Assembly: GCF_004193775.1 (NCBI RefSeq) | Contig: NC_041005.1 | Coordinates: forward strand, 16,587,865-16,651,864 | From: Glycine soja | Taxonomy: Eukaryota > Streptophyta > Magnoliopsida > Fabales > Fabaceae | Reading direction: 5' to 3' | Length of the DNA stretch: 64,000 bases | Translations under genes and position numbers: made by a program | Notes under the pieces: generated by a model | What the model saw: the letters and a program-made list of their open reading frames with translations, nothing else | Databases searched by the model: none | Told to the model about the DNA's origin: nothing | Shown: positions 14,936 through 46,834 of the stretch, piece after piece | Layout of the letters: every line of letters starts with the position of its first letter | How positions within the stretch are numbered: position 1 is the stretch's first letter

Positions 14936-14943
14936 TCACTTTT

Positions 14944-19411: not shown

Positions 19412-19588
19412 CCCGAGTGGTTATCCGTATAAACATTCTTTTGCTATCTGTAAGACAGAACGCTTGATAGCATGCAGAGGCTGACATAGTCTTCTGCACC
19501 TTTTGTTCCTCCGGGAACAACAAGTCATTTACATGCGGAAATTTCATGGTCACCCGCGACTCTCATCAACCGAGAGGAGCGAAATTAG

Positions 19589-19975: not shown

Positions 19976-19979
19976 AAGT

Positions 19980-19988
19980 AAAGAGGGG
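19980..19988 (+). other. Polypurine tract, element B
   Basis: AAAGAGGGG, four bases before the 3' LTR, the usual site for plus-strand priming. Identical tracts precede the LTR in A and C. Confidence 0.75.
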
Positions 19989-19992
19989 CAAC

Positions 19993-21873: not shown

Positions 21874-21878
21874 CAAGT
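21874..21878. repeat. Target site duplication of element B, right (CAAGT)
   Basis: Matches 6411-6415. Confidence 0.95.
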
Positions 21879-23896
21879 ACCATGGGGGTGCCCCGGGGCA
21901 TTCCGTCAAAAAATGCTTGGCCCTTAAATACAAGGTCCAACATTTAATGGATGCCGGATGGCTGACTTTCCAAGAGGATCGGCCCAATGTGAGAACCAAC
22001 CCGCTCGCCAATCATGGAGGGGGAGCGGTTAATGCAGTTGAGTCCGATAGGCCGCACAGGTCTAAACCTTTAAGGGATGTGGCAACCCCTAGGAGGTTTA
22101 TCTTTAAGGCCCTACAAAAAGGAGGTGTGATTCCCCATAGTGGGTGTAAGGAGGATTCCTGTCTGCTACACTCCGGCGAGATGCATGACATGGAGACGTG
22201 TTTGGAAGTAGAGGAATTATTACAGCGGATGATAGATCAAGGTCGATTGGAAGTCGGCATTGAAGGAAAAGAAGAGCAGCATATATGCATGCAATCAACG
22301 GAGGGGAGCGGTGTTGTGAAGCCCAAACCCTTGGTGATATACTTCACTAAGAGTGCAGCTTTGCAAAAGCCCGGACACCCCTTGATAGCCAAACCTATTC
22401 CTTTCCCGTACCAAAACAGCCACGCGGTCCCGTGGAGATATACACCTCCGGGAGAGAAGGAAGAAGAAGTCACTGACGTCAGCTCGCTGTCAGCTAAAGT
22501 AACAAATATCACGGGACTGAGTGGTGTGACCCGTAGTGGTCGTGTGTTCGCACCTCCGGACCTACCAGTCCAACCCGCCGACGTCAAAGGAAAAGGAAAA
22601 GTGGTGGAGGAACAAGATGGCGAAGCACCCCACGCTTCGAATAAAGATATTCCAGCAAAGGGGCCCCCGGAGAAAAAAGATGGTAGAAAGGAGGTGTCGC
22701 TAGAGGAAGCCAGCGAGTTCCTTCGGATAATTCAGCAGAGCGAATTCAAGGTTATCGAACAGCTCAACAAAACCCCGGCTAGGGTCTCGCTGTTGGAGTT
22801 ACTTATGAGCTCCGAGCCTCATCGGGCTCTGCTAGTAAAAGTGCTGAACGAGGCTCACGTGGCCCAAGATATCTCGGTAGAAGGTTTCGGAGGGCTGGTC
22901 AACAATATCACTGCCAACAACTATCTTGCCTTCGCCGAAGAAGAAATCCCCGCCGAGGGGAGAGGGCATAATAAGGCTTTACACGTATCAGTCAAGTGTA
23001 TGGACCATATCGTAGCCAAGGTGTTCATCGATAATGGTTCCAGTTTAAACGTGATGCCTAAGAGCACTTTGGAGAAGTTACCATTCAATGCTTCCCACTT
23101 TAAACCAAGTTCAATGGTGGTTCGGGCCTTCGATGGCACTCGCCGAGAGGTTAGGGGAGAGATCGATCTCCCAGTACAGATAGGCCCTCACACCTGTCAA
23201 GTCACCTTCCAAATAATGGATATTAACCCCCCCTACAGCTGCCTGTTGGGGCGCCCGTGGATCCACTCAGTGGGAGTTGTGCCTTCTACACTCCACCAAA
23301 AGCTGAAATTCGTAGTGGAGGGGCACTTGGTCATCGTGTCAGGCGAGGAAGATATCTTGGTAAGCTGCCCATCCTCCATGCCTTATGTGGAAGCCGCAGA
23401 AGAATCGTTAGAAACCGCTTTCCAGTCTTTTGAGGTGGTCAGCATTTCCTCCGTGGACTCCCTCTTTGGGCAACCTTGTCTGTCCGATGCAGCGGTAATG
23501 ATGGCCCGAGTTATGTTGGGGAACGGTTATGAACCCGGGATGGGTTTAGGCAAAGACAACGGCGGCATAACTAGCCTGATAAATACCCAAGGAAATCGTG
23601 GGAAGTATGGTTTAGGCTATAAGCCCACTCAGGCGGACATGAAAAGAAGCATCGTGGGAAGGAAGAACAGTGGTCAGAGCTCGCGTTGGAGACAAGAAAG
23701 CGAAGGAAGCCCGCCCTGCCACATAAGTAGAAGCTTTATAAGCGCGGGTCTGGGAGACAAAGGTCAAGTGTTCGCGATATGCGAAGATGATGTTCCGAGT
23801 ACCTTGGATTTGGTACGACCATGCTCTCCTGATTTCCAGCTGGGAAATTGGCGAGTGGAGGAACGCTCCGGCATTTACGCAACGAGCATAATGTAA
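21879..23896 (+). pseudogene. Element A gag C terminus and protease with G-patch
   Basis: Continues gag of A after element B in the same phase; the open frame that begins inside the B LTR at 21674 is an artefact of the insertion. It holds the rest of the zinc knuckle (H-x5-H-x4-C), a linker, the retroviral-type aspartic protease with DNGSS active site (23030-23044) and the LLGRPW motif (23248-23265), then a G-patch-like segment near 23506-23590 (MLGNGYEPGMGLG). A G-patch behind the protease is known in Ogre-type elements. The frame has no stop until TAA at 23894-23896, which lies just inside the intron donor. Without element B this frame would be intact. Confidence 0.92.
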
Positions 23897-24071
23897 ACCT
23901 TTACGGTTTTAAAAGCTCTATAGTTGGGCCTAGGCTTTAGAGTTTTTCCTTTTGTTAAGGCTTTGTGTCTTTTGTTTTTGAATTTATAATACAAGGATCT
24001 TTCTTCATCTGTTCCTGGTCTCTACCCATTCTCATTCATTTGCATGTTTACTTCTTTTTCTGAAACGGCAG
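23893..24071 (+). other. Pro-RT intron, element A
   Basis: GTAAAC donor at 23893 overlaps the pro stop codon; ACGGCAG acceptor ends at 24071 after a pyrimidine-rich stretch. Removal of 179 bp joins the pro frame to the RT frame exactly (AT plus A, then TCC GAT GAC) with no stop. C has an intron of the same length at the same place. Such an intron is a described mark of Ogre elements and would control the ratio of Gag-Pro to Gag-Pro-Pol. Confidence 0.88.
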
Positions 24072-26094
24072 ATCCGATGACGAGTCCCCCGAAGGTACTA
24101 ATACCTGGGACCCGCCTATCGACTTCGAGCGAGAAATGAATCAAACGGAAGATGAAGGAAATGAGGATGTGGGACTTCCCCCAGAACTAGAAAGAATGGT
24201 CGCCCATGAGGACCAAGAAACGGGGCCTCATCAAGAAGAAACAGAGCTAGTAGACTTAGGAATTGGCAGTGGAAAGAGGGAAGTAAAGATAGGTACAGGT
24301 ATTACCGCACCTATCCGTGAAGAATTAATAATCCTGCTAAAAGACTACCAAGACATCTTTGCTTGGTCATACCAAGATATGCCCGGTTTGAGTTCTGACA
24401 TTGTACAGCACCGATTACCTCTAAATCCCGAGTGTTCCCTAGTGAAACAGAAACTGAGAAGGATGAAGCCCGAAACATCCTTGAAGATAAAAGAAGAAGT
24501 GAAAAAGCAATTTGACGCTGGATTTCTGGCCGTCGCTCGGTATCCAGAATGGGTTGCCAACATCGTACCAGTTCCTAAAAAAGATGGGAAAGTACGAATG
24601 TGTGTAGATTATCGGGACCTGAATCGGGCCAGTCCCAAGGACAATTTTCCTTTACCACACATTGATATCCTCGTAGATAACACGGCCAATTTCGCTTTAT
24701 TTTCCTTCATGGACGGTTTCTCTGGTTACAATCAGATAAAGATGGCGCCCGAGGATATGGAAAAGACTACTTTCGTCACCCTGTGGGGAACATTCTGTTA
24801 CAAGGTGATGTCCTTTGGACTCAAGAACGCCGGGGCAACTTATCAACGGGCCATGGTAGCTTTGTTCCATGATATGATGCATCAAGAGATCGAGGTCTAC
24901 GTGGACGACATAATTGCTAAATCTAAATCCGAGGAAGAACACCTTGTCAACCTGCGGAAATTGTTCGAAAGGCTTAAGAAATATCAATTAAGGTTGAACC
25001 CCGCTAAGTGTACCTTCGGGGTCAAATCAGGGAAATTGCTTGGTTTCATTGTAAGCCAGAAAGGGATAGAGGTAGACCCCGAAAAAGTGAAGGCTATCCT
25101 TGAGATGCCAGAACCCCGTACAGAGAGGCAAGTCCGAGGTTTCCTGGGGCGCTTGAATTATATTGCCAGATTCATATTGCAGCTCACCGCCATTTGTGAG
25201 CCGTTGTTTAAACTCTTGCGCAAAAACCAAACTGATCGGTGGAATGAGGATTGCCAAGAGGCTTTTGGAAGGATCAAAAAGTGCCTAATGAATCCTCCCG
25301 TGCTTATGCCGCCAGTACCTGGAAGGCCTCTCATTTTGTACATGACAATCTTGGACGAGTCAATGGGGTGTATGCTGGGGCAACATGACGAATCCGGGAA
25401 GAAAGAGCGCGCTGTTTACTACCTAAGTAAGAAGTTCACGACCTGTGAGATGAATTACTCCTTGCTCGAAAGAACGTGTTGTGCTTTAGTATGGGCATCC
25501 CATCGCCTAAGGCAGTACATGCTGAGCCATACTACCTGGTTGATATCCAAAATGGACCCGGTTAAGTACATCTTTGAAAAGCCAACTCTCACGGGATGAA
25601 TCGCCCGGTGGCAAGTCCTGCTATCTGAGTTTGATATAGTCTACGTCACCCAAAAGGCGATAAAAGGAAGCGCTTTGGCAGATTATTTGGCTCAACAGCC
25701 TCTTAACGACTACCAGCCCATGCTTCCTGAATTCCCGGATGAGGACATCATGGCCTTGTTCGAGGAAAAATTGGACGAAGATCGGGACAAATGGACTATA
25801 TGGTTTGACGGAGCGTCAAACATTCTAGGTCATGGCGTTGGGGCAATGTTGGTCTCTCCGGACAATCAATATGTACCTTTCACAGCCAGGCTAGGATTCG
25901 ACTGCACCAACAACATGGCCGAATATGAAGCATGTGCCCTAGCCGTCCAGGCAGCAATTGACTCCAATGTCAAACTACTCAAGGTGTACGGCGACTCAGC
26001 GTTGGTAATCCATCAGCTGAGAGGGGAATGGGAAACTTGAGATCCCAAGCTGATACCCTACAAAGCCTATATCAAGGAATTGGCTAAGACCTTC
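24072..26094 (+). pseudogene. Element A pol: RT and start of RNase H, with two nonsense codons
   Basis: Exon 2 opens at 24072; the first Met is at 24136. The reverse transcriptase contains CVDYRDLN and the catalytic YVDD (24898-24909), followed by the connection domain and RNase H with WFDGAS near 25800. Two stops break it: TGA at 25597 (C has CGA, a CpG-type change) and TGA at 26038 (C has AGA). At 26094 element C interrupts the frame; the sequence resumes in phase at 46835. Otherwise protein identity to C is very high. Confidence 0.93.
26090..26094. repeat. Target site duplication of element C, left (CCTTC)
   Basis: CCTTC precedes element C and recurs at 46830-46834. Confidence 0.95.
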
Positions 26095-27763
26095 TGTCGC
26101 AACCTACCCTTCGGCGGGAGGGCGACGCGTGACTCGCGGGATGCGTGTTCCACGAAAGGAATACGCGCGGAGTCGCCACCAACGTTTATTTGAGGAAAAC
26201 GTTGGAAAAACCGGAAAAGACGCGATCTACGAACTTTTTAGTGAAAAGGTTCGGGAGTTGTATTTACGCACGGGGAAGGTATTAGCACCCCACACGTCCG
26301 TCCCAAGGGACGACAGCCTTTAATCGAATGTGCAAACATGACTTTGATTTTTATGTTCCCTTTTTTACATTTCTATGTCCTTCGTACCTTTTTATATTTT
26401 TCTCTTTTTTGTGGTCGACAAGGGTGTTTCCCTTTGCTCCTACGTATTCCTCAATTTGGGATGAGAAAATCAGACCTACGTAGTTCTTTCTTATCAAGTG
26501 ATTCTTTTTACTTAAGACGTGATCATTTTAAGGCGTTGGACCTTAAAAATGATCCATTTTACTTAGTGAGAAATTGAAATGACAAACTTCCAAAGCCTAT
26601 TTTTGTGGACGAGCTTGACTAGGCGAGTTGATTTTAGCCTTAGTTTCACTTTAGTTATTAATCAATTCGATTAAGAATGAGAAAACCCAAAGAGAAAACG
26701 TCTGATTGATTTTCCGCCTTATTTTACTAAAAGATGTTTTTTTGATTATTATATTATTTTTTACCTCTTTTTGATTTCCAACGTGGTTACGGCACGACCG
26801 AACGGTCGGAATTCATTTTAACCAAAATTAACGGATAAGACAATTCAAACGTTCGGTGGAAATTGATTTTATTTTTAAGTTAAGCGAGAAATGACTTAAG
26901 TAAAATGGCTTAAGCACGTCAACAGGGGGTATAAAAAGTAAACAAAACGAGAATAAAAATGCACGAAACACAATGTGGACCACTACGGGTACATAGAATG
27001 GATCGAAAAGCTTGGTTCGAGGTACTTACCCGTTGAAGATCGAAGAACGATGAAGAACGAATGAAGAACGTCGAAGAACGGTTGAAACCTTTGCGAGATT
27101 CCTCACGGAAAACGTTACGAAAACGTTTCGGAAGCGCCTCGGCTTAGATTTTCTTCACGGAAACAATTTTCCCAAGCAAATTCGAAAGAGAGAGAAGTGC
27201 CAAAGGGGCTGGACCCCTTCCTTCTTGCCTTCCTCCCCTATTTATAGCAAAATAGGGGAGGTGGTTGCCGCCCAGCTCGCCCAGGCGAGCTCAGCTCGCC
27301 CAGGCGAGCAGGGTTGCTTCCTCCAGAAGCAACCGCCTTCTGGAGGAATATTCCGGAGGGCCCAAGTGGGCCTGGGTGCTATTTGCACCCCCATTTTTAC
27401 TAAGTACACCCCCCTCTGCTGTTTTTTGGTGATTCTTTTTTCGTAAAGTTACGGAAACTTACGAATTTCGTAACGATACTTGTTTTCTTTCCGTAATGTT
27501 ACGGAACCTTGCGGATTACATAATCATCCCCTTTTTGACTTACGGAATGTTACGGAACCTCACTTAATTATGCAACGATGCTTCCATTTGATTTCCGGTG
27601 TGTCACGGAAACTTACGGATTGTGCATCAATATTTTTTTGGTTTTTCGGCATGTCCTGGAATTTCACAAATTGCCTAATGATGGGTGCCAAGCACCTCAC
27701 GAGGACCAAAGAATGGTCGCACGTCATCGAGCAAAGGTCCCCGGACGAAATTAGGGTATGACA
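26095..27763 (-). repeat. Element C 3' LTR
   Basis: 1669 bp, TGTCATACCC to GGTTGCGACA on the minus strand. The U3 ends match A, but the middle differs and holds two GCTCGCCCAGGCGAGC-type palindromes (27286-27310) just upstream of the TATA box; R-U5 is like B. The D LTR has a related U3. Confidence 0.95.
27239..27246 (-). promoter_or_regulatory. TATA box of C 3' LTR
   Basis: TATAAATAGGGGAGG on the minus strand, placed as in the other LTRs. Confidence 0.8.
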
Positions 27764-27767
27764 GTTG

Positions 27768-27776
27768 CCCCTCTTT
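27768..27776 (-). other. Polypurine tract, element C
   Basis: AAAGAGGGG on the minus strand, four bases from the 3' LTR. Confidence 0.75.
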
Positions 27777-27892
27777 ACTTGTCTTTTATTGGAGATAAAA
27801 GGAAAGTAAAGATAAGACACTAATTTCGTTCCTCTCGATTTGACGAGAGTCGCAGGTGACCATAAAATCTCCACATGCAAATGACTTGTTGT

Positions 27893-28159
27893 TCCCAAAA
27901 TTTCACAAATTGCCTAATGATGGGTGCCAAGCACCTCACAAGGACCAAAGAATGGTCGCTTGTCATCAAGCAAAGGTGCCCGAAAATCAGTGTATGACAC
28001 TAATTTCGTTCCTCTCGGTTGACGAGAGTCGCGGGTGACCATGACTTGTCGCTCCTAGAATTTCACAAATTGCCTAATGATGGATGCCAAGCACCTCACA
28101 AGGACCAAAGAATGGTCGCATGTCATCAAGCAAAGGTCCCCGAAAATCAGTGTATGACA
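27893..28159 (-). repeat. Reiterated LTR starts before the C 3' LTR
   Basis: Two copies of the first ~105 bp of the LTR (their TGTCATAC ends at 27999 and 28159, period 160), separated by the CGCGACTCTCGTCAAC hairpin segment, as in A and B. Confidence 0.85.
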
Positions 28160-28341
28160 CTAATTTCGCTCCTCTCGGTTGACGAGAGTCGCGGGCGACC
28201 ATGAAATTTCCGCATGTAAATGACTTGTTGTTCCCGGAGGAACAAAAGGTGCAGAAGACTATGTCAGCCTCTGCATGCTATCAAGCGTTCTGTCTTACAG
28301 ATAGCAAAAGAATGTTTATACGGATAACCACTCGGGTATTT

Positions 28342-30293
28342 CCGCGTATCATCGGGCCCGCCGACTCTGGATGATACAAGGGTGCAGAATGACCAAACTT
28401 GGTCTCTGCTTGTCATCGGGCCCACCGCCTCTGGATGACAAATGGGTGCGAATAACCGTAAGGTATCTCCGCGTATCATCGGGCCCGCCGCCTCTGGATG
28501 ATACAAGGGTGCAGAATGACCAAACTTGGTCTCTGCTTGTCATCGGGCCCGCCGCCTCTGGATGACAAAAGGGTGCGAATAACCGTAAGGTATCTCCGCG
28601 TATCATCGGGCCCGCCGCCTCTGGATGATACAAGGGTGCAGAATGACCAAACTTGGTCTCTGCTTGTCATCGGGCCCGCCGCCTCTGGATGACAAAAGGG
28701 TGCGAATAACCGTAAGGTATCTCCGCGTATCATCGGGCCCGCCGCCTCTGGATGATACAAGGGTGCAGAATGACCAAACTTGGTCTCTGCTTGTCATCGG
28801 GCCCGCCGCCTCTGGATGACAAAAGGCTGCGAATAACCGTAAGGTATCTCCGCGTATCATCGGGCCCGCCGCCTCTGGATGATACAAGGGTGCAGAATGA
28901 CCAAACTTGGTCTCTGCTTGTCATCGGGCCCGCCGCCTCTGGATGACAAAAGGGTGCGGATAACCGTAAGGTATCTCCGCATATCATCGGGCCTGCCGCC
29001 TCTGGATGATACAAGGGTGCAGAATGACCAAACTTGGTCTCTGCTTGTCATCGGGCCCGCCGCCTCTGGATGACAAAAGGGTGCGAATAACTGTAAGGTA
29101 TCTCTGCGTATCATCGGGCCCGCCGCCTCTGGATGATACAAGGGTGCAGAATGACCAAACTTGGTCTCTGCTTGTCATCGGGCCCGCCGCCTCTGGATGA
29201 CAAAAGGGTGCGAATAACCGTAAGGTATCTCCGCGTATCATCGGGCCCGCCGCCTCTGGATGATACAAGGGTGCAGAATGACCAAACTTGGTCTCTGCTT
29301 GTCATCGGGCCCGCCGCCTCTGGATGACAAAAGGGTGCGAATAACCGTAAGGTATCTCCGCGTATCATCGGGCCCGCCGCCTCTGGATGATACAAGGGTG
29401 CAGAATGACCAAACTTGGTCTCTGCTTGTCATCGGGCCCGCCGCCTCTGGATGACAAAAGGCTGCGAATAACCGTAAGGTATCTCCGCGTATCATCGGGC
29501 CCGCCGCCTCTGGATGATACAAGGGTGCAGAATGACCAAACTTGGTCTCTGCTTGTCATCGGGCCCGCCGCCTCTGGATGACAAAAGGGTGCGGATAACC
29601 GTAAGGTATCTCCGCGTATCATCGGGCCCGCCGCCTTTGGATGATACAAGGGTGCAGAATGACCAAACTTGGTCTCTGCTTGTCATCGGGCCCGCCGCCT
29701 CTGGATGACAAAAAGGGTGTGGATAACCGTTAGGTATCTCCGCGTATCATCGGGCCCGCCGCCTCTGGATGATACAAGTGTGCAGAATGACCAAACTTGG
29801 TCTCTGCTCGTCATCGGGCCCGCCGCCTCTGGATGACAAAAAGGGTGCGGATAACCGTAAGGTATCTCCGCGTATCATCGGGCCCGCCGCCTCTGGATGA
29901 TACAAGGGTGCAGAATGACCAAACTTGGTCTCTGCTTGTCATCGGGCCCGCCGCCTCTGGATGACAAAAGGGTACGGATAACCGTTAGGTATCTCCGCGT
30001 ATCATCGGGCCCGCCGCCTCTGGATGATACAAGGGTGCAGAATGACCAAATTTGGTCTCTGCTTGTCATCGGGCCCGCCGCCTCTGGGTGACAAAAGGGT
30101 GCGGATAACCGTAAGGTATATCCGCGTATCATCGGGCCCGCCGCCTCTGGATGATACAAGGGTGCAGAATGACCAAACTTGGTCTCTGCTTGTCATCGGG
30201 CCCGCCGCCTCTGGATGACAAAAGGGTGCGGATAACCGTAAGGTATCTCCGCGTATCATCGGGCCCGCCGCCTCTGGACTATACAAGGGTGCA
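28342..30293 (-). repeat. 127-bp hairpin minisatellite, element C
   Basis: About 15.4 units, same sequence and two-hairpin-per-half design as in B and A. Single-base insertions near 29710 and 29840 shift the spacing of two units. Variants recur five units apart: the two neighbouring units that carry GGCTGCGAATAACC and GGGTGCGGATAACC around 28820-28960 recur 635 bp later at 29455-29595, so a block of five units was duplicated. Confidence 0.93.
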
Positions 30294-31070
30294 CGTCACA
30301 TGACCTCAGGGTCAGTATGACAAAGATTATGGGGCGGCCGACAAAAGCAAGGCTCTTGCTCCTACGTATCCTCCAATGAGGAATTCAGACCTACGTAGTT
30401 CTTGATAACTTGTGAGACTTGAAAAGTCTCCATCGGAAAATGCTGACATCTCCGGAAAGGGCGCAGATGACCATATTGGTCTCTGCTCGTGAATCACACT
30501 TGGGGTCACTGAATGACGAGGTGCGGATAACCGTAAGGTGTCTCCGCGGGCTACCAGCTCTTGAGTCATGGCAACAAAAGGCGGTGTGGTCGACAAAAGC
30601 GAGGCTCTTGCTCCTACGTATCCTCCAATGAGGAACTCAGACCTACGTAGTTCTGGATAGCTTGTGAGACTTGAAAAAAGTCTCGGTGTTTTCTTCGCTA
30701 AAAATGCAAACATGCTTTAGTAAAGAGATAAATATTCCAACTGATTAGAGCAGCATATGCTTTTTTGAGTGACAAACAATGCGTCTATCAGGGAAGGAGA
30801 GTCTGCTGATGGGATCCCCCATAACCATAAATGAGATTTTGAATGTTAGCATTTCGTTTCTAAATGACCATTTAGAGGAAACACCGGGTTCGACAAAAAT
30901 AGAAGAAATCCACTCAAAGTGTATCAATCTCGCACAGGTAAGTGTTTCATCCTAATTCCGAACCATAGATATGTCATGACTTGACTTTGCAAATTATTTC
31001 CTATCAAATCAAAAATTACATGCGTGATCCTGGATCAATAGGGCTTCCCTTGGGAATGGGTTCTTTTGGT

Positions 31071-31107
<37 letters not shown>

Positions 31108-32510
31108 TTTAGTGCGGGGCGAGAAAAAAAAGGTCGCTAGCGCACGGGATTTTGGTTGGTAATTAAAGGGAGAAGACCATTTTAGGTCGTGGTTTCCTTT
31201 CCTTCCTTTTTTGTTCATTTGGTGACAATTCTGTATTGTTCAGATATTGTCCGGTCCAAAGACCTCTCTGCACATTTCTTCTGTTTTCTTTCGATCCTTG
31301 ATCAGGAGCTTTCTTTCCTTCTTTTCTCTTTTCTTTTCTTTCTCCCATTCTTTGATTGGGAATTTTCTTTCTTTTCTTTTTTCTTTCTCCCACTCTTTGA
31401 TTGGGAATTTCCTTTCTTTTCTTTTTTTGCTTTCCCTTTGATTGGAAATTTTCCTTCTTTTCCTTTTTGCTTCCGAGGGTAAGGATTGACATTCTCACCC
31501 TAGGTCAAGGTTTATGGTGAGTCAGGATTTTGGCTCAAGGTTTGTAGAATGGCTAGACATGATACATGTCGGGGTTTGGTTTGGTTCAAGGATAAAAGGG
31601 ATGCCCCACATTATTTCCATGACACAAATGCAAAACTGATGATTTAGAAACTTTATGCAAAACTGGCCACGCATGCACCTATGTGGACACTCAAGTGTCA
31701 AACTTTTATGGTCATGTGATGCTAGGGCTCAGGATTCATTTCCTCTATTTTAGTCAACCCAACGTTTCCAAAATATGTTCTTTTATCAATTTGTGCATTC
31801 ATCCGAGTCCATTTTGGGCGTCTGGGAAAATCTTCACAGCATTCACCCTTCAGGTGTATACACATTTTTTCAAAAACTAGTTATGATCAGTGAATTTTTC
31901 CAAAGAAAAGTTGGAAGTCATCTCTTTTCAAAAGCATGTTGGTTTTTCAGCTTGACAACTTATTTTTCTTTTTTCTCCTTCTCTTTTTTTTTTATCATTA
32001 TCATTTGTTTATTTCTTTTTCTTGTTTGTTTTTTTTTTCTTCCTTTTTTTTTCATGAGGTATTTTGCTACCTAAACATGTGCATATTTTTGTGAGGTATT
32101 TTTGCTATATACATGCATATCCAAGGTATCTTGCCACCTAAACATACATATATATGTTTTGCGAGGTATTTTTTTGCTACATACACGCACATCTAAGGTA
32201 TCTCTCTACCTAAACATACAAATATATATTTTGTGAGGTATCTTTTTGCTACATACATGCATATCTAAGGTATCTTGCTACCTAAACATACATATATATA
32301 TTTTGTGAAGTATTTTTTTTGTTTACATGCATGCATATCTAAGGTATTTTCACTACCTAAACATACATATATATATATTGTGAGGTATGACTACCTTCCG
32401 AGCTTGCGCTTGTTTTATTTAAATCCCCAGGATCATGAGCAACTAGGTGCGTCCTACTATAAAAAGTGATCAAATAACAAGCATAGATTCAGAAGGTACT
32501 AGGTTGCCTC
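30294..32510 (-). other. 3' region of C between aORF remnant and minisatellite
   Basis: Contains two TACGTAG hairpin blocks (30353 and 30600), a T run of about 35 (31071-31106), a pyrimidine-rich stretch with direct repeats of TTTGATTGGGAATTTTCTTT (31350-31470), AT-rich tandem units (32060-32400) and the GTTGCCTCCTAGTAGCGCTT word near 32503. Homologous to 16350-18600 of B and 50580-52350 of A. No gene seen. Confidence 0.6.
32060..32400. repeat. AT-rich tandem repeat, ~75-80-bp units, element C
   Basis: About four units with GTGAGGTATCTTTTTGCTAC, ATGCATATCTAAGGTATCTT and ACCTAAACATACATATATAT; the inverted counterpart of 16500-16835. Confidence 0.8.
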
Positions 32511-32702
32511 CTAGTAGCGCTTCTTTAACGTCTTTAGCTGGACGCGTCGCTCCCGGAGAAACGACCACCCCTTGATGGCTTCGAAGCGCTGCTGGTGTAC
32601 CGCGCTCCTAAAGCGGTGACTATCATACTCCGGAGCGGAACTAGTTCCTTCTGCTGCCTTGTCCTTCCTGGACCTCTTTGAGGCAAGCTTCCTCGGGGCC
32701 AT
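32511..32702 (-). pseudogene. Element C aORF, 3'-truncated
   Basis: Starts MAPRKL at 32702 and is nearly identical to the first ~58 codons of the intact aORF in A, including the basic KRSRKDK run. After the RVQL codons it jumps into 3' non-coding sequence (CGTTAAAGAAGCGCTACTAG) and stops at 32511. About 350 codons are therefore missing; the same downstream junction word occurs in B at 16369. Its first exon boundary is preserved (see the intron at 32706-33923). Confidence 0.85.
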
Positions 32703-32705
32703 TTC

Positions 32706-33923
32706 CTGCGAAGGCAAACATTTGGAAAGTTAGTTTTACCAGTGGGATACTATTCTTAAAACAAAAATGACATACAACCTCCTCCCATAAATACAAACAT
32801 CAATGTAAATTTAGAGCAAGCTTATGCGCATATTTCCTTACAAACGTTCTCTTGCACAAGACATTCTATTAACCGAAGAAAAATGCACCCATATACAATC
32901 AAGGCAGCTTCGTTACCTAGATTATTTACACGTACTTCCAAGGTGTATTTGTTACTTACATCACACACCTCCTTGGCTAAATTCACATACATGCATACTC
33001 AAAGCATTTTGGGGTACCAAAAATTGCACATGTGCACATCTTGGTATTTCTAATACCTATACATACACAAACTTCATGATGAATCTTGACTATCTACACA
33101 ATAAGGTGCTACATTTTATGCTCTTTTCAAGTTTTTGCTACCTAAAGCCGCATGCAAATTCAAGTATATTTTCCTTTGCTGACTAAAATTGTATTCAAAT
33201 TAAAAGGTATACATTTTTTGGTAATGTATCTTCTTTACATAACATGCAACATATTTATGTATATTTTTTTGTGAGACATTTTGACTACCAAAAATTATAT
33301 GTACATACATCCAAGTATTTTGCTATCATACCCAAAGTGTAAATTGCCAAAGGTATTTTGCTACCTATTCTAAACCTACACATTTATGATGAGCAAAATT
33401 CCTAACCATCTAGGCATAGGGAAAATATTGTAGCGTGGCCCATAGCTGATTGCTGGCCAAAAAAGGGTAACTTTACCCAATATGCACCTCCTTTTGTGCT
33501 CTTTTTGCATAAAATTTCAGTTTCTAGGACTAGGATATATGTGGGGCAATTACTCTAGCCTTTTTCGGGAATGAATACATATTCCAAAAAAATAGAAAAT
33601 ATGCACAAACCAAAATACCCCATGGGTTGTCTCCTTACAAAAGTCACACGCTAATGCCATTGAGGCATTTCACCGAACACTTGGTGGGCGCGCGTTTAGG
33701 CATCAATAGCAAGAGAACGGGGACAATGTGGCATGTCCTATTGTTTCAAAATGCATTATAGGCCTAGGGCCATCTCATACCAACCCCTAATTCAACCTAA
33801 TCAAGCAAGAAAACAAATCAAAATTGCCCCACATATTTGAGCACACTCCCACAATTTAGAGCACCAAAAGGAGATCAAAATACCCCAATGAAAAGCTAGA
33901 AAGCTTAGGGATGGAATACTTAC
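32706..33923 (-). other. Intron in the aORF leader, element C (1218 bp)
   Basis: On the minus strand the donor is AA|GTAAGT at 33923 and the acceptor TTCGCAG|G at 32706, with a CTAAC branch-type word at 32733-32729, about 23 bases from the acceptor. Joining the flanks yields exactly the contiguous sequence in A at 49175-49195 (CCAACAA then GAAATGG). The interior is AT-rich and non-coding, with degenerate GGTATTTTGCTACC words like those of the 32060-32400 repeats. It lies four bases before the aORF start codon. Confidence 0.85.
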
Positions 33924-34865
33924 TTGTTGGTGATGAACAAAAGCGCAAAACGGAATCAAAAAATGCGACAAAGGATGACCCTAGGGCTGCAAATTCGTCA
34001 ATCCCGTGGGTATGGCTTTTGAAAGGGGGAAAAGAAGTTTTTGAATGTAAAAACGCGCCCCCTTTCGTCATTTTTATAATTTGGTGCAGGGGTGGCTCGC
34101 CCAGGCGAGCCCAGCTCGCCCAGGCGAGCTAACCTGCACTTTTTTTTTTTTTTTTTTTTTGAGGGGAACATTAACCATGTCCCCTCCCTTCTCATGGATT
34201 AGCATTTTGCCTAACTTGAACTTACTTAGGTTAGAATTAGGCGTTGATTACTTATTTTATTATTACTCTTTTCCTTTTTAAAACAAACAAATAGTAAAAG
34301 AAAGCTGCAAAATACAAAGGATACGGGGCTGCCTTGTAGCGACATTCCCTGCTTGTTTCGCACAGAGAAGGGCAACGATCGGTCGGTCGTGACCCCATCC
34401 CCGCTTGCGTTCATCCTTAAGTACCTGCAAGTAATAAACAACCAGGTATGGCCAATCTTGGCCGCATCATTACCCTACCTTGATTGGTTTCTGCCGTTCA
34501 TGTTTTGTCTTCACTCCAGAAGGTAGCCCAAGGTGATCCTGCCCCTGTTTTACCACAACAATATACATGCGTATGCGTATGCGTATGCATGAATGTTTTC
34601 AAACGCAGAAAATTTAGGGAAAGTTGGTTCAGGTTCAATTCTAATTAAGCGCTTGGGGGATCCCATGAACTGAGCGGAAGGGCTCAGGCGATCACAAATT
34701 AACGCAAGGTTTGAAACTAACGTGAGGACTAAAAGCCTCAAATCCATGTTCATTTCTTTGAAAGATCGTAACAAGAGATACAACGGACCGGAAATCCCTG
34801 GGGGGAAATCTAGAAAACGCATAAAGATAGAGAACATGCAGCGACATCCTTAATTGCCCCAGCTT
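33924..34865 (-). other. Region between pol and aORF, element C
   Basis: About 940 bp, homologous to 48260-49180 of A. It carries a TACGCA hexamer repeat (34565-34588), a T run (34140-34160) and two GCTCGCCCAGGCGAGC palindromes (34097-34130), where A has only one. No conserved ORF. Confidence 0.6.
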
Positions 34866-37800
34866 CTAAGCATAATATTGTTTGACGACATCAGAGTTCA
34901 CGGGTGAAGGTAGCTCTTCGCCATCCATGTTGGTAAGCACCAGGGCTCCTCCGGAGAAAGCCCTCTTCACAACAAAAGGCCCTTCGTAGTTCGGGGCCCA
35001 TTTCCCTCGATGGTCCTTGACAGCATGGGACATTTTCTTTAGCACAAGGTCTCCCTCATGGAACTTGCGTAAGCGTACTTTCTTGTCGAACGCGCTCTTC
35101 ATTCTTTGCTGGTACAAGCGCCCATGACTCATGGCCGTTAAGCGCTTACCCTCAATGAGGTTGAGCTGATCGTAGCGTGTTTGAGCCCACTCTGATTCCT
35201 TTAATCCGGATTCTGCCAAGATCCTTAATGATGGGACTTCTACCTCAAATGGTAACACCGCCTCCATCCCATATACCAATGAGAACGGCGTTGCCCCAGT
35301 TGACGTTCGCACTGAAGTCCGGTAACCGTGTAATGCGAATGGGAGCATCTCGTGCCAATCCTTGTATGACACGGTCATCTTTTGGATAATCTTTTTGATA
35401 TTCTTATTGGCTGCTTCCACGGCTCCATTCATCTTTGGCCGGTAGGGTGTGGAATTGTGATGCTGGATTTTAAACTCCTCGCACATTTCCCCCATCATCT
35501 TGTTATTCAGGTTGGTGCCGTTGTCCGTGATAATCTTTCTTGGCAAACCATATCGGCAGATGATCTCCTTCTCAATGAACCTGACCACCACATTCCTCGT
35601 GACATTGGTATATGAAGCCGCCTCGACCCACTTGGTGAAATAATCTATTGCTACGAGGATGAAGCGATGACCATTCGAGGCCTTGGGCTCAATGGCCCCG
35701 ATGACATCTATTCCCCACATGGAGAAAGGCCAAGGGGCGGACATGACATTCAGGGGATGCGGTGGGGCATTGACATTATCCGCGAATGCTTGACATTTGT
35801 GGCACTTCCTCACATGGACACAACAATCACTTTCCATGGTAAGCCAGTAATAACCTGCTCTTAAGATCTTCCTGGCCATAGCATGCCCGTTGGCGTGCGT
35901 TCCAAACGAGCCCTCATGGACTTCCTCGATCATGTGATTTGCCTCCTTGGCATCCACACATCGCAGGAGTGTCATGTCGTGATTTCTCTTATACAGTGTG
36001 CCTCCGCTCATGAAGAAACTGGCTGCCAACCTCCTCAATATCCTTTTATCGTTGTCGGCAATCTCTGGCGGGTATTCTTTGCTTACGACATATCGCTTGA
36101 TGTCGTAATACCAAGGCTTTCCGTCCCGTTCCTCTTCCACTTGGCAACAATGTGCGGGTTTGCCACGACACTGAAATTCAATGTAGGGTAGGTCCCCGTG
36201 CGGTGTTAGCTGGAACATAGATGCCAACGTAGCAAGTGCATCCGCCATTTGATTTTCCTCGCGGGGAACATGATGGAAGGAGATCTCATCGAAAGTCTTA
36301 GCCAATTCCTTGATGTAGGCTTTGTAGGGTATCAGCTTGGGATCTCTAGTTTCCCATTCTCCTCTCAGCTGATGGATTACCAATGCTGAGTCGCCGTACA
36401 CCTTGAGTAGTTTGACATCGGAGTCAATTGCTGCCTGGACGGCTAGGGCACATGCTTCATATTCGGCCATGTTGTTGGTGCAGTCGAATCCTAGCCTGGC
36501 TGTGAAAGGTACACATTGATTGTCCGGAGAGATCAACACTGCCCCAACGCCATGACCTAGAATGTTTGACGCTCCGTCAAACCATACAGTCCATTTGTCC
36601 CGATCTTCGTCCAACTTTTCCTCGAACAAGGCCATGATGTCCTCATCCGGGAATTCCGGATGCATGGGCTGGTAGTCGTTAAGAGGCTGTTGGGCCAAAT
36701 AATCTGCCAAAGCGCTTCCTTTTATCGCCTTTTGGGTGACGTAGACTATATCAAACTCAGATAGCAAGACTTGCCACCGGGCGATTCGTCCTGTGAGAGC
36801 TGGCTTTTCAAAGATGTACTTGACCGGGTCCATTTTGGATATCAACCAGGTAGTATGGCTCAGCATGTACTGCCTTAAGCGATGGGACGCCCATACTAAA
36901 GCACAACACGTTCTTTCGAGCAAGGAGTAATTCATCTCACAGGTCGTGAACTTCTTACTTAGGTAGTAAACAGCGCGCTCTTTCTTCCCGGATTCGTCAT
37001 GTTGCCCCAGCATACACCCCATTGATTCGTCCAAGATTGTCATGTACAAAATGAGAGGCCTTCCAGGTACTGGTGGCATAAGCACGGGAGGATTCATTAG
37101 GCACTTTTTGATCCTTCCAAAAGCCTCTTGGCAATCCTCATTCCACCGATCAGTTTGGTTTTTGCGCAAGAGTTTAAACAACGGCTCACAAATGGCGGTG
37201 AGCTGCGATATGAATCTGGCAATATAATTCAAACGCCCCAGGAAACCTCGGACTTGCCTCTCTGTACGGGGTTCCGGCATCTCAAGGATAGCCTTCACTT
37301 TTTCGGGGTCTACCTCTATCCCTTTCTGGCTTACAACGAAACCAAGCAATTTCCCTGATTTGACCCCAAAGGTACACTTAGCGGGGTTCAACCTTAATTG
37401 ATATTTCTTAAGCCTTTCGAACAACTTCCGCAGGTTGACAAGGTGTTCTTCCTCAGATTTAGATTTAGCAATTATGTCGTCCACGTAGACCTCGATCTCT
37501 TGATGCATCATATCAAGGAACAAAGCTACCATGGCCCTTTGATAAGTTGCCCCGGCATTCTTGAGTCCAAAGGACATCACCTTGTAACAGAACGTTCCCC
37601 ACAGGGTGACGAAAGTAGTCTTTTCCATATCCTCGGGCGCCATCTTTATCTGATTGTAACCAGAGAAACCGTCCATGAAGGAAAATAAAGCGAAATTGGC
37701 CGTGTTATCTACGAGGATATCGATGTGTGGTAAAGGAAAATTGTCCTTGGGACTGGCCCGATTCAGGTCCCGATAATCTACACACATTCGTACTTTCCCA

Positions 37801-38313
37801 TCTTTTTTAGGAACTGGTACGATGTTGGCAACCCATTCTGGATACCGAGCGACGGCCAGAAATCCAGCGTCAAATTGCTTCTTCACTTCTTCTTTTATCT
37901 TCAAGGATGTTTCGGGCTTCATCCTCCTCAATTTCTGTTTTACCGGGGAACACCCGGGATTTAGAGGTAATCGGTGCTGCACAATGTCAGAACTCAAACC
38001 GGGCATATCTTGGTATGACCAAGCAAAGATGTCTTGGTAGTCTTTTAGCAGGATTATTAATTCTTCACGGATAGGTGCGGTAATACCTGTACCTATCTTT
38101 ACTTCCCTCTTTCCACTGCCAATTCCTAAGTCTACCAGCTCTGTTTCTTCTTGATGAGGCCCCGTTTCTTGGTCCTCATGAGCGACCATTCTTTCTAGTT
38201 CTGGGGGAAGTCCCACATCCTCATTTCCTTCATCTTCCGTTTGATTCATTTCTTGCTCGAAGTCGATAGGCGGGTCCCAGGTATTAATACCTTCGGGGGA
38301 CTCGTCATCGGAT
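34866..38313 (-). CDS. pol: Element C pol: RT, RNase H, integrase (intact)
   Basis: Exon 2 begins at 38313 after the intron acceptor; the first Met is at 38249, giving 1127 codons without a stop. Domains, counted from that Met: reverse transcriptase ~130-340 with CVDYRDLN and catalytic YVDD at 255-258; RNase H with WFDGAS (Asp 558); integrase with an H-x-H/C-x2-C type zinc region (KCHKCQ) near 810-820, and catalytic Asp 848, Asp 909 and Glu 945 (the last pair spaced D-x35-E). No chromodomain follows; it ends near KQYYA. RT before RNase H before integrase places it in Ty3/gypsy. It copies element RNA into DNA and integrates it. All key residues are present. Confidence 0.95.
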
Positions 38314-38492
38314 CTGCCGTTTCAGAAAAAGAAGTAAACATGCAAATGAATGAGAATGGGTAGAGACCAGGAACAGATGAAGAAAGATCCTTGTATTATA
38401 AATTCAAAAACAAAAGACACAAAGCCTTAACAAAAGGAAAAACTCTAAAGCCTAGGCCCAACTATAGAGCTTTTAAAACCGTAAAGGTTTAC
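38314..38492 (-). other. Pro-RT intron, element C
   Basis: GTAAAC donor at 38492, overlapping the pro TAA, and GGCAG acceptor at 38314; 179 bp, the same length and frame effect as in A. It is almost identical in sequence to the A intron. Confidence 0.88.
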
Positions 38493-41400
38493 ATTATGCT
38501 CGTCGCGTAAATGCCGGAGCGTTCCTCCACTCGCCAATTTCCCAGCTGGAAATCAGGAGGGCATGGTCGTACCAAATCCAAGGTACTCGGAACATCATCT
38601 TCGCATATCGCGAACACTTGACCTTTGTCTCCCAGACCCGCGCTTATAAAGCTTCTACTTATGTGGCAGGGCGGGCTTCCTTCACTTTCTTGTCTCCAAC
38701 GCGAGCTCTGACCACTGTTCTTCCTTCCCGCGATGCTTCTTTTCATGTCCGCCTGAGTGGGCTTATAGCCTAAACCATACTTCCCACGATTTCCTTGGGT
38801 TTTTATCAGGCTAGTTATGCCGCCGTTGTCTTTGCCTAAACCCATCCCGGGTTCATAACCGTTCCCCAACATAACTCGGGCCATCATTACCGCTGCATCG
38901 GACAGACAAGGTTGCCCAAAGAGGGAGTCCACGGAGGAAATGCTGACCACCTCAAAAGACTGGAAAGCGGTTTCTAACGATTCTTCTGCGGCTTCCACAT
39001 AAGGCATGGAGGATGGGCAGCTTACCAAGATATCTTCCTCGCCTGACACGATGACCAAGTGCCCCTCCACTACGAATTTCAGCTTTTGGTGGAGTGTAGA
39101 AGGCACAACTCCCACTGAGTGGATCCATGGGCGCCCCAACAGGCAGCTGTAGGGGGGGTTAATGTCCATTATTTGGAAAGTGACTTGACAGGTGTGAGGG
39201 CCTATTTGTACAGGGAGATCGATCTCTCCCCTAACCTCTAGGCGAGTGCCGTCGAAGGCCCGAACCACCATTGAACTTGGTTTTAAGTGGGAAGCATTGA
39301 ATGGTAACTTCTCCAAAGTGCTCTTAGGCATCACGTTTAAACTGGAACCATTATCGATGAGCACCTTGGCTATGATATGGTCCATACACTTGACTGATAC
39401 GTGTAAAGCCTTATTATGCCCTCTCCCTCGGCGGGGATTTCTTCTTCGGCGAAGGCAAGATAGTTGTTGGCAGTGATATTGTTGACCAGCCCTCCGAAAC
39501 CTTCTACCGAGATATCTTGGGCCACGTGAGCCTCGTTCAGCACTTTTACTAGCAGAGCCCGATGAGGCTCGGAGCTCATAAGTAACTCCAGCAGCGAGAC
39601 CCTAGCCGGGGTTTTGTTGAGCTGTTCGATAACCTTGAATTTGCTCTGCTGAATTATGCGAAGGAACTCGCTGGCTTCCTCTAGCGACACCTCCTTTCTA
39701 CCATCCTTTTTCTCTGGGGGCCCCTTTGCTGGAATATCTTTATTCGAAGCGTGGGGTGCTTCGCCATCTTGTTCCTCCACCACTTTTCCTTTTCCTTTGA
39801 CGTCGGCGGGTTGGACTGGTAGGTCCGGAGGTGCGAACACACGACCACTACGGGTCACACCACTCAGCCCCGTGATATTTGTTACTTTAGCTGACAGCGA
39901 GCTGACGTCAGTGACTTCTTCTTCCTTCTTCCCCGGAGGTGTATATCTCCACGGGACCGCGTGACTATTTTGATACGGGAAAGGAACAGGTTTGGCCATT
40001 AAGGGGTGCCCGGGCTTTTGCGAGGCTGCACTTTTAGTGAAGTATATCCACAAGGGTTTGGGCTTCGCAACACCGCTCCCCTCCGTAGATTGCATGCATA
40101 TTGCTGCTCTTCTTTTCCTTCAATGCCGACTTCTAGTCGACCTTGGTCTATCATCTGCTGTAACAATTCCTCTACTTCCAAACACGTCTCCATGTCATGC
40201 ATCTCGCCGGAATGTAGCAGACAGGAATCCTCCTTACACCCACTATGGGGAATTACACCTCCCTTTTGTAGGGCCTCAAACATAAACCTCCTAGGGGTTG
40301 CCACATCTCTTAAAGGTTTAGACCTGTGGGGCCTATCGGATTCAACTGCATTAACTGCTCCCCCTCCATGATTGGCGAGCGGGTTGGTCCTCACATTGGG
40401 CCGATCCTCTTGGAAAGTCAGCCATCCGGCATCCATTAAATGTTTGGACCTTGTATTTAAGGGCCAAGCATTTTTCGACGGAATGCCCCGGGACACCCCC
40501 ATGGTACTTGCAAGTTGCATTAGGGTCCATACCACTTTCGGGAAAGGGGGTTCGAGGACCCTTCCGGGAGTTACCACGGCCAAATGATTGGCGATGAGGG
40601 ATGGTAGAAGATCTTCGTACGTCATTGGGAGCGGGGTGAATTCCGGCAATGGCCTCGGAGGGAAGTTCCTTTGTCGTGTTGGAATTACCGGCCGGTCGAG
40701 CGTGTTCGGAGTTGGAACTTGGGAGCTTCCCTCTGGGTGGGTGCCTTAGGCTGCACGGGTGTTGAACTAGAGGCGTTCCCAGCATGAGCCGAGAAGCTTG
40801 GGTGATGTTGCGCGTACTGATGGGTACCATGAGGTGTTTGCTGGGGTTTGACCCACGCGTGGGTGTTGAAGAGACGGCATGGGCATCTCCTTCCTTCCTT
40901 TTTGCCCCTGTTGCCCGATTCTTTTGGCGTTCACGTTTGTGGAGGAAACGTAATCAAACTTTCCTCTCTTCAATCCAACCTCGATTCTTTTCCCCGGCAA
41001 ACACCAGATCTGCAAAGCTGGACGGCATGTAACCCACTAGCTTCTCATAGTAGAACACTGGCAGAGTGTCTACCATCATGGTGATCATCTCTCTCTCAAC
41101 CATGGGGAGGAGCTACTTGTGCCGCCAAATCCCTCCATCGCTGCGCATATTCTTTAAAGGTTTCACCCTCTTTCTTGAACATATTCTGCAGTTGAGTACG
41201 GTCAGGAGCCATATCAGAATTGTACTGATACTGCCTAAGGAAGGCGGTAATCAGATCCTTCCAAGCACGGATACGGGAAGCTTCCAAATTAGTGTACCAC
41301 ACTACCGCAGCTCCGGCCAAGCTATCCTGAAAGAAGTGTATCAACAACTTTTCATCTTTAGAGTGGGCGCCCATCTTACGGCAGTACATTTGAGATGGTT

Positions 41401-42193
41401 TTTGGGACAAGTCGTCCCTTTATACTTGTCGAAGTCCGGCACTTTGAACTTCGGGGGAATAACAACATCGGGTACTAAGCAAAGATCCGTCATGTCTGCA
41501 AATGGATAGTCCCCAAATCCTTCCACAGCCCTCAATCTTTCCTCAAGGAGATCGAGCTTCCTCCTTTCTTCAGTTGCCGGGGGCGGCCCTTCCATGGACA
41601 AAACTATTGGCGATGATGCGATGTTGGGTTGAGGCAATGTGCCTGGTGCCGGCCCTTCGGGGATCGGGGGATAGAACTCGACATCCCTTCGAGCATAATC
41701 TTGAGGGTCTTTATGGACTTCGTCGGGCTGCTGAGGAGGCTCTCTTTCATGGACGGGAGAGGCAATGTGGCCCGCATCTTCTTGCAAGACGGGTGGTGAA
41801 AAGTTGGGCGGCAATCCATAAGGGTAAGCCGCTCGGTTGTATCCCAGGTGAGGGCTGCCATCGTGCCCCAGTGTGTCCCTTCCCCGTCCTACTATGTTTG
41901 AGGGAGGATGGTGCGTAGTTGCCAAGAGAGTCGGGTCTGCTTCGGCAGCCGAACTGACAGCGGCGGCGGTGGCCGCGTTCTTCTCTNNNNNNNNNNNNNN
42001 NNNNNNNNNNNNNNNNNNNNNNNNNNNNNNNNNNNNNNNNNNNNNNNNNNNNNNNNNNNNNNNNNNNNNNNNNNNNNNNNNNNNNNATGAGCTGCTTCAT
42101 ACTTAACATGGCCTCCATCATGGAGGCCATTTGTTCTTTCAGAGCCGACATGTCGGCTTTCATCTGTTCCTGCGTCTCCTCTTGATCACCCAT
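38489..42193 (-). pseudogene. Element C gag-pro, with many single-base indels and an N gap
   Basis: Begins MGDQEE at 42193 and ends at the TAA at 38489. Same layout as in A: N-terminal helix, Pro-rich part, gag domain, zinc knuckle, DNGSS protease (near 39350) and G-patch. Compared with A, I count about a dozen 1-2-base indels between 39415 and 41400, mostly in runs of one base, for example near 41395, 41103, 41000, 40913, 40850, 40710, 40676, 40540, 40445, 40100 and 39430. ORF1 and pol on either side have none. The breaks may be sequencing or assembly errors rather than real mutations. Confidence 0.85.
41987..42086. other. Assembly gap (100 Ns)
   Basis: Exactly 100 Ns in gag of element C. 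The flanking bases, read on the minus strand (AGCTCAT and AGAGAAGAAC), are directly adjacent in A at 4933-4949, so little or nothing may be missing. A run of 100 is a common placeholder for unknown length. Confidence 0.97.
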
Positions 42194-42430
42194 CGTTCTA
42201 GATTTGGATCTGGTGCGATAGGGATCCCTTGCGGCGCGTTTAGTTATGGTGTTTTTCCCTAAAAAACCAAACGTGAGGAGTGGGTAAAGAAAGAAAATGC
42301 ATGCTAGAGATGAAATGTAGGAGTGATTTGATTTGCACAAGCTTTTTTGGAGTAGAAACATGGGACCAACTCATTTTATTTCAAAAAGGAAGTCGTATCC
42401 AGTCAAGGTCTGAGAGACCATACAAGTTTC

Positions 42431-44296
42431 CTAACGATTTCTAATTATGTGGGCCATTAAGTCTATCATATGCTGACAATAGCCGAGAAGCCCATGAATC
42501 TCTTCGGGGGTGGAGTAGGTGTCTGCCATTGCCTTGGCTTTGGCTAACAAGCGGGGAAGTTCTTGACTCCCGTTCAAGGTAAGAGCAAACCAGTCCATCC
42601 ACATGGTTGCCTCTTGGTGTAAAGAGTCGATCACCCTTCCTCTAGCCTCTTTTTCCGCATACACTTGAGCATACTCATCCGCGATTCTATGCTCGTGGGC
42701 CGTGGCTAGACCTAACTCTTCTTGGTACTTGGCGATGATAGCTAGCATGTTGGTCTCTGTCTCGCATAAACGCTGAGACAAGCTTCTTTTGGACTTTGAA
42801 CAAGCAATCAACTCCTCTTTCAGAACCATGCTATGTGCTCGCGACTGGTCTCTTTCTTCCCTTCGCAACTTGAGTTCACTATTGCTACCCCATAGAGCTC
42901 CGCGAAATTTGTTCCGGCCATACTCTTCCTTGCGAGCCCTCTTGGTCTCTTGTTCAAGGGCTCTTGCGGTAATTGCATTCTCTTCCCGTAACCCGGCACA
43001 CTCCTTCCGAACGTGTGTAGCGGCCAACTTGAACTTCTCCTTGGCAAGTTTTGCCTTTCCTAACTCGCTTTTGAGAGCTTGGACTTCTTCGTCCTCTTCC
43101 GGTGCTTCAAAACTCTCTTCGCTGACGACTTTTAACTTGGCGAGCCAATCTAAACCTCGTATATGAACTTTCAGCCATTCGCGGTACCCACCAATGATGC
43201 CATTACGAATGCCTCTAAGCTCTTGATCTTTCCTTAACGGGGTTTCCCATGCCTTATGGATTCTTTGTATAGTCTTGGAACTTTGTGCGCCGAGATCCCT
43301 CACAAAGAAAGGAGACATGCTTTCTTCCGTCGGTGCTCCCCTCATGGGGTACCCTAGTTGTCTTATAGCGAGCGCGGGATTGTAGTTAATACAACCCCTC
43401 GTTCCTACCAGCGGAATGTTTGGGTATCTTCCACATGAGAAAAGGACTCCTTCTTTTCCTTCCTTCCATTGGGGGAACCAACTGATTGTTCTACCTCCTA
43501 TCCCGACCAAGAGCTGGTCCCAATCTATTCTCCTCTTTTCAGTACACGAGCGATGGCTCAGGAGCGGACATGGATGTCTTGTGTCTTGTTGAAACAAGTG
43601 CGAAACCAACCAAACACAGAGGGCGGGTAAGCAACAGATGATCCATGCGCTACTCTTTTCGCACCTTCGGTCAAATGTGTCAAATAGATCTGCCAAGACA
43701 GCTACCACCGGACTTTCCTTGCTATGGTGGTAGGCAAGGAAAGCGTCGATTGCTGCTAGGTCTACCAAACCATCCACGTTTGGAAAGAGGACGACCCCGA
43801 AAATTAGCAAAGCTAACACATCCATAAACGGGACCCAGTCTCCTTGATTGGCCATACCCCTTGCCTTGTCTTCTAGGTACTTCCGTGGTAGGCCCGCTAT
43901 GCCGTTCCGAGTCTGTTTTATGCGGTCCAAACCTCTTGCTGAATCCTTGACCACAGTTGCAATTCTGCTCAAAGAGGGGAGACACCCGGAGGAAAGATAT
44001 GGTTTTCTTCCCCCGAGAGGACATCCTAGAATTTCCTCAAATTCTTCAATGGTTGGTACTAATTGGAAGTCCCCGAATGTGAAGCACCTCAAAGGCTGGT
44101 CGTAGTATTGGGTAAGTGATACAATGGCTTCTATGGAGACCTCTGCTATGGTTAACTCTAAGATCTTTCCGTAAGTCTTGCGGAAGGCTTGCATTTGGAG
44201 GGGTTCCATCAACCGCCCTAATTCCTTGATGCTGGTGGTATCTAGGCTTTTGACCTTGACTTGGTAGAACCTCTTGCCGGTTTGATTTGTTCCCAT
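42431..44296 (-). CDS. Element C ORF1 (DUF7745-like with coiled coil), intact
   Basis: 621 codons from ATG at 44296 (MGTNQTG), the start shared with A, B and D; an upstream in-frame Met at 44332 is not conserved in B. Residues ~1-260 carry YYDQPLRCFTF, LGCPLGGRKPY, FGVVLFPN and DLAAIDAFLA, which I assign from memory to plant DUF7745. Residues ~260-380 contain NYNPALAIRQLGYPMRG. Residues ~390-540 are rich in Lys, Glu and Arg with heptad spacing (coiled coil). The C terminus is short and conserved. Such an ORF before gag is a defining part of Ogre elements. Function unknown; possibly RNA binding or particle assembly. Confidence 0.92.
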   Translation of the reverse strand: MGTNQTGKRFYQVKVKSLDTTSIKELGRLMEPLQMQAFRKTYGKILELTIAEVSIEAIVSLTQYYDQPLRCFTFGDFQLVPTIEEFEEILGCPLGGRKPYLSSGCLPSLSRIATVVKDSARGLDRIKQTRNGIAGLPRKYLEDKARGMANQGDWVPFMDVLALLIFGVVLFPNVDGLVDLAAIDAFLAYHHSKESPVVAVLADLFDTFDRRCEKSSAWIICCLPALCVWLVSHLFQQDTRHPCPLLSHRSCTEKRRIDWDQLLVGIGGRTISWFPQWKEGKEGVLFSCGRYPNIPLVGTRGCINYNPALAIRQLGYPMRGAPTEESMSPFFVRDLGAQSSKTIQRIHKAWETPLRKDQELRGIRNGIIGGYREWLKVHIRGLDWLAKLKVVSEESFEAPEEDEEVQALKSELGKAKLAKEKFKLAATHVRKECAGLREENAITARALEQETKRARKEEYGRNKFRGALWGSNSELKLRREERDQSRAHSMVLKEELIACSKSKRSLSQRLCETETNMLAIIAKYQEELGLATAHEHRIADEYAQVYAEKEARGRVIDSLHQEATMWMDWFALTLNGSQELPRLLAKAKAMADTYSTPEEIHGLLGYCQHMIDLMAHIIRNR

Positions 44297-45140: not shown

Positions 45141-45158
45141 TCCCCAGTGGAGTCGCCA
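45141..45158 (-). other. Primer binding site, element C
   Basis: TGGCGACTCCACTGGGGA on the minus strand, two bases inside the 5' LTR boundary. Confidence 0.8.
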
Positions 45159-45160
45159 AC

Positions 45161-46829: not shown

Positions 46830-46834
46830 CCTTC
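46830..46834. repeat. Target site duplication of element C, right (CCTTC)
   Basis: Matches 26090-26094. Confidence 0.95.

Follow-up and report, generated by a model that had tools for sequence, protein, structure and literature searches.

The soybean retrotransposon Gmr9/GmOgre is described as an LTR element of more than 20 kb, present in more than 3,200 intact copies, in which an intron divides gag-pol into two exons, pol is followed by a further ORF, and minisatellites are interleaved ahead of the 3′ LTR; the published scheme marks one intron, in gag-pol, and the word itself appears once in the paper (PMC3305785). The Ogre elements of pea and Medicago carry an intron between pro and RT, which is partially spliced (PMC6317226). 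BARE of barley produces both unspliced and spliced RNAs, and the spliced RNA, for which no amplifiable genomic copies are reported, seems to be excluded from replication (PMC3735527). In the laboratory, removal of an intron is the classic reporter of retrotransposition (PMC12786077).

The stretch of Glycine soja DNA analysed here (64,000 nucleotides; the window) contains elements A, B and C, the latter two nested in A, with the following layout:

224..54281, plus strand: element A, interrupted by B and C and made up of the pieces 224-6415, 21874-26094 and 46830-54281, with a provisional 3′ boundary
6416-21873: element B, nested in A, TSD CAAGT
26095..46829, minus strand: element C, about 20.7 kb, with LTRs at 26095-27763 and 45161-46829 that are 99.7% alike
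23893..24071, plus strand: pro-RT intron of A, 179 bp, retained
38314..38492, minus strand: pro-RT intron of C, 179 bp, retained

The exons around the 179-bp intron are named pro and RT from their position and from an earlier note on this DNA. The TSD CCTTC at 26090-26094 and 46830-46834, together with the near-identical LTRs of C, indicates that C was inserted into an A already present; C is thus a young insertion and A the older element. Judged against the published description, the host element appears to be a Gmr9/GmOgre-like Ty3/gypsy element, and the Ogre-type features found here are the pro-RT intron, the length of C with minisatellite arrays before the 3′ LTR, and an ORF after pol. Arrays of a 127-bp unit occur in A, B and C. 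A run of 100 N (41987-42086) lies inside C between stretches matching the gag-side region of A.

The ORF after pol, termed the aORF, is preceded in C by a 1218-bp segment that is missing from A:

32706..33923, minus strand: 1218-bp intron of C, GTAAGT...GCAG, read from the sequence
32729..32733, minus strand: branch-type word CTAAC, 23 nt before the intron end
33924..34080, minus strand: upstream exon, from the sequence and an alignment of 12 copies
49180..49190, plus strand: empty junction AACAA/GAAATG of A, read from the sequence

On the minus strand, the borders in C read AACAA/GTAAGT (intron start at 33923) and GCCTTCGCAG/GAAATGG (intron end at 32706), with the aORF start codon 3 bases beyond the intron end. 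On the plus strand of A, AACAA (49180-49184) is fused base for base to GAAATGG (from 49185), the sequence across 49184/49185 being AACAAGAAATGG. The earlier note had described an intron of this length in C, with these borders and a CTAAC word 23 nt from its end, and its exact absence from A; coordinates, sequence and length all proved correct. The join is ambiguous by one base, a G at both borders, so that GT-AG is one of two equivalent placings. The features of a spliceosomal intron that can be read on DNA are present, namely GT-AG ends, a branch word and a composition that is AT-rich relative to the exons (36% GC in the intron vs. 57% in the aORF and 43-45% in the upstream exon). As a separate matter, four weak Rfam matches were considered as possible structured RNA in the segment and rejected, none lying inside the intron and none reaching the gathering score. 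Upstream of the exon, most of the 12 aligned copies have one or two palindromic AGCTCGCCTGGGCGAGC units (34093-34130), placed some 170-200 nt ahead of the donor.

Intron-bearing copies were sampled in two ways, as 28 of the 40 best matches of C (1537 candidates, 40 scored) and as 25 hand-picked places spread over contigs C1-C6, chosen from 100 listed among 1158 donor places. All 28 copies of the first set conserve donor and acceptor, and CTAAC is present in 28/28 of their introns. An acceptor was located for 21 of the 25 hand-picked sites; among the other four, one is masked (L091), two run into unrelated sequence (L098, L102), and one (L104) has a shortened intron and a sequence starting inside the aORF.

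The aORF itself is preserved to very different degrees in the two elements:

49188..50429, plus strand: aORF of A, 413 codons and stop, with a PF20167 domain
32536..32702, minus strand: truncated aORF of C, with its start codon at 32702 and the cut at the 10-nt repeat GCGTCCAGCT (32536-32545)

A Pfam search matched PF20167 to A at 49188-50423 (E 7e-43), whereas the aORF of C ends after 56 codons; of A and C, only A has the whole ORF. It lies after pol, in sense orientation and before the minisatellite array, and by position only it is taken as the published Gmr9/GmOgre ORF3. In pairwise comparisons (Nei-Gojobori, 12 pairs, stops skipped, dS above 1 in the widest pairs), dN/dS was 0.05-0.09 between A and 8 other copies, 0.06-0.10 in 3 further cross-subfamily pairs and 0.23 within the old subfamily introduced below. 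The aORF is under purifying selection, and its expression therefore matters to the element; with an intron in its leader, it may be expressed from spliced RNA. In B, the aORF region (near 15478-16221) is diverged and broken, and the 10-nt repeat GCGTCCAGCT also occurs in the 3′ region of B (16351-16360). The C-type join at GCGTCCAGCT recurs with small differences in L010, L020, L036 and L075, in intron-bearing and intronless copies alike, as would be expected of repeat-mediated template switching.

To set this single pair of elements in context, the genome of the window (1.01 Gb, 1119 contigs) was surveyed for both junction types. With up to 2 mismatches over the whole genome, the donor junction was found at 1158 places and the empty junction at 74, of which 28 are exact, while the reversed-pattern controls for both gave 0 places each; 74 vs. 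1158 is a rough ratio, the two patterns allowing different mismatches. The earlier note had held that multiple copies of both types would support its reading, and both types do occur in multiple copies. It had also argued that a random deletion would be unlikely to strike both splice borders, and that ragged intronless copies would speak against splicing. When both flanks had to match exactly and the gap between them could be any 0-30 bases, 28 places were found, all of them at the splice point (control 0). Twenty-two of these have the 14-base gap of an exact splice, including one AAAATGG and three CCACCAAG, and the remaining six have 13 bases. The 13-base joins (GAATGG) are the product expected from intron copies ending CAG/GAATGG, an acceptor subgroup seen in 8/28 of the closest intron-bearing copies and in 4/21 of the others. 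Ragged joins numbered 0/28 within the range covered (exact 12-base flanks, gaps 0-30; longer deletions fall outside it). Fifty of the 74 empty places were fetched, and 12 of the 24 others are identical 2-mismatch sites (TTCATCCCCAACAAGAGATGGC) on one strand of contig C10 (10574168-11922474, 1.35 Mb), which are probably a locally amplified block and are not independent of one another.

The intron is not confined to close relatives of C. A diverged (old) subfamily reading TTCATCTCC also carries the donor, and five of the six fetched copies hold a homologous intron, 907-1136 bp long, whose CGCAG end directly precedes the ATG context, with CTAAC or TTAAC in 5/5 (the sixth, L109, has no acceptor and was left out). 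Between the subfamilies, the first ~280 and the last ~50 nt of the intron are conserved, while the middle is mostly ~50% alike. The far better conserved intron positions 1-280 correspond to 33923-33644 of the window, and this 5′ part is perhaps an enhancing or regulatory stretch. The shared intron indicates that it predates the split of the subfamilies, unless it was moved across by recombination, and its presence in the diverged subfamily implies that absence is loss.

A final tree of 92 copies (41 intronless, 51 intron-bearing) was built on the 560-bp downstream flank; many of its forks have weak support, and the bootstrap had yet to converge. Copies with broken or odd downstream flanks were dropped from the later trees (L001, which is C, L010, L016, L020, L029, L036, L063, L071, L072 and L075), and L095 and L103 additionally from this one. 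At least 15 changes of intron state are needed on it (10 in young and 5 in old copies), 8 of them forced by supported branches; these are state changes rather than splicing events, and recombination during reverse transcription could transfer the state between lineages. A tree that unites all intronless copies in one clade is rejected (p-AU 0.0004). At one weakly supported fork (84/70), A and 11 further intronless copies arise next to the intron-bearing L090 and a clade of 34 copies, 31 of them intron-bearing; A's lineage may well have kept transposing without the intron. Overall, the 1218-bp intron appears to be ancestral to at least two subfamilies and to have been repeatedly lost thereafter.

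The most recent losses bear on which RNA was copied. Three intronless copies (L019, L021 and L034) are 98.0-100% identical to some intron-bearing copy in each of 8 flank windows, covering ~1.4 kb per side, with another intronless copy equally near in a few of these windows. The 179-bp GT-AG pro-RT intron is retained in A, C and all three recent losers, that of L019 being read via L111, which matches 43/60 bases of the 3′ flank. The retention that the earlier note had pointed out in intronless A is thus repeated in three further copies. Loss of the pro-RT intron also occurs: the exact exon join was found at 18 places genome-wide (up to 2 mismatches, 2 exact, control 0), including C2:20326166 and C19:10656675, and for at least two of these (C4:35305983 and C1030:7873) an aORF intron is still present ~4.4 kb downstream. 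When the 18 places were compared with the 80 empty aORF junctions listed (74 + 6), no pair had the expected spacing of ~4.4 kb; one of the 18 lies 9.8 kb from such a junction. The lack of 4.4-kb pairing and the losers that keep the pro-RT intron indicate that each intron was lost separately in the copies seen.

Exact GT-AG joins without repeats in many lineages imply that spliced RNA was copied into DNA. We therefore hold it very probable that the segment is a spliceosomal leader intron of the aORF, repeatedly lost by reverse transcription of RNA spliced there, with the pro-RT intron kept. Element RNA would sometimes be spliced at the leader intron with the pro-RT intron left in; this RNA would then be reverse transcribed and integrated, giving, many times over, copies with an exactly joined leader, and A's intronless lineage perhaps continued transposing. 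The central proposal of the earlier note, that an ancestor of A was copied from RNA spliced at the aORF intron while keeping the pro-RT intron, is upheld by the exact joins and the repeated loss. That splicing occurs at this intron, and that the template was a packaged, near-genomic and partly spliced RNA, is what we infer from the DNA.

Splicing at one intron only can mean either a partly spliced long RNA or a subgenomic aORF mRNA combined with template switching. In the latter case, the template would be a spliced mRNA made from its own internal promoter to the 3′ end of the element; after copying it, the reverse transcriptase would move on to an unspliced genomic RNA packaged with it. This would explain naturally why the pro-RT intron is retained, and it fits with several old copies aligning to C only over the last ~190 nt before the donor, a stretch where a TATA-like word is found in several of the 12 aligned copies (AAATTATAAAAA at 34071-34082, ~150 nt upstream of the donor), as well as with the conserved first ~280 nt of the intron. 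The word is a putative internal promoter; however, the promoter is a motif guess, and only 1/6 aligned old-subfamily copies has a TATA-like word. The 18 exact pro-RT losses, at least two upstream of retained aORF introns, are harder to accommodate, as a long RNA spliced at one intron seems to have been copied there. They favour the partly spliced long RNA, and leave the subgenomic template as a possible but less likely source.

Recombination among the RNAs of LTR elements is common. In a family this large, true losses could be few, with the intronless state spread by recombination of co-packaged RNAs during reverse transcription, and the 15 changes do depend on the 560-bp flank. However, at least two 3′-exon variants, GAAATGG and GAATGG, are found both after the intron and in empty form (AAAATGG, at one empty place, is possibly a third), the three youngest losers match intron-bearing copies on both flanks up to the junction, and both diverged subfamilies have empty copies, all of which makes this account improbable. 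Gain of the intron in the lineage of C, with A ancestral, was suggested by a first tree that included only the 28 intron-bearing copies nearest C, in which the intronless copies formed a basal grade resembling one recent gain. Intron-bearing copies chosen regardless of their likeness to C are, however, scattered all over the tree, as are intronless copies, and the old subfamily has the intron; with these less biased copies in the tree, gain was rejected, and the earlier note's view of it as less likely than loss can be put far more strongly. An ordinary deletion, of which the family has repeat-mediated cases such as the aORF of C, or the insertion into C of a mobile element that A lacks, is scarcely credible given the 28/28 joins at the splice point and, at the borders of the segment (both ends inspected), no target duplication, no inverted or terminal repeats and no border repeat longer than one base, which also rules out the separate transposon that the earlier note had named as a refuting outcome.

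More tentatively, the element could run the aORF as a gene of its own, driven by an internal promoter and enhanced by the first ~280 nt of a 5′-UTR intron. RNAs of different splice states would then be packaged, the presence or absence of introns would be a countable record of which RNAs were reverse transcribed, and intronless lineages like A's might have become masters; we regard this wider picture as conceivable rather than likely.

The earlier note rested on one case, A vs. C, and many losses have now been found genome-wide. In this natural element with two introns, the many copies that a single genome contains differ in splice state, so that the DNA lets one count the copying of spliced RNA. 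Its leader intron also suggests a way in which the aORF protein, conserved yet obscure, might be expressed. The pro-RT intron of Ogre and its partial splicing were known before; what is added here is a second intron with a rich DNA record of loss. Within the Ogre/Gmr9 literature searched, a scope outside which the main Ogre splicing papers (2003, 2008) lie, we found nothing on another intron ahead of the aORF, and such an intron is apparently undescribed in an Ogre-type element.

We note four comparisons with the described systems. First, the elements resemble Gmr9/GmOgre in their length, LTRs, gag-pol intron, ORF after pol, minisatellites and high copy number (1158 donor places here), whereas the published Gmr9/GmOgre scheme has one intron and a second is present here before the aORF (PMC3305785). 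Second, unlike the pro-RT intron of Ogre (PMC6317226), this intron measures ~1.2 kb, is found downstream of pol within the leader of the aORF, and is the one that A has lost. Third, as with the spliced env-like messages of elements such as Bagy-2 (PMC7264820, PMC3735527), a sense ORF after pol may depend on splicing for its expression, whereas here the donor is a short way upstream, within the leader of the aORF itself, and the product is a PF20167 protein with no env evidence here. Fourth, BARE is likewise an LTR element, and its spliced RNA seems to be shut out of replication (PMC3735527), in contrast to the present family, in which 74 empty junctions stand beside 1158 donor junctions.
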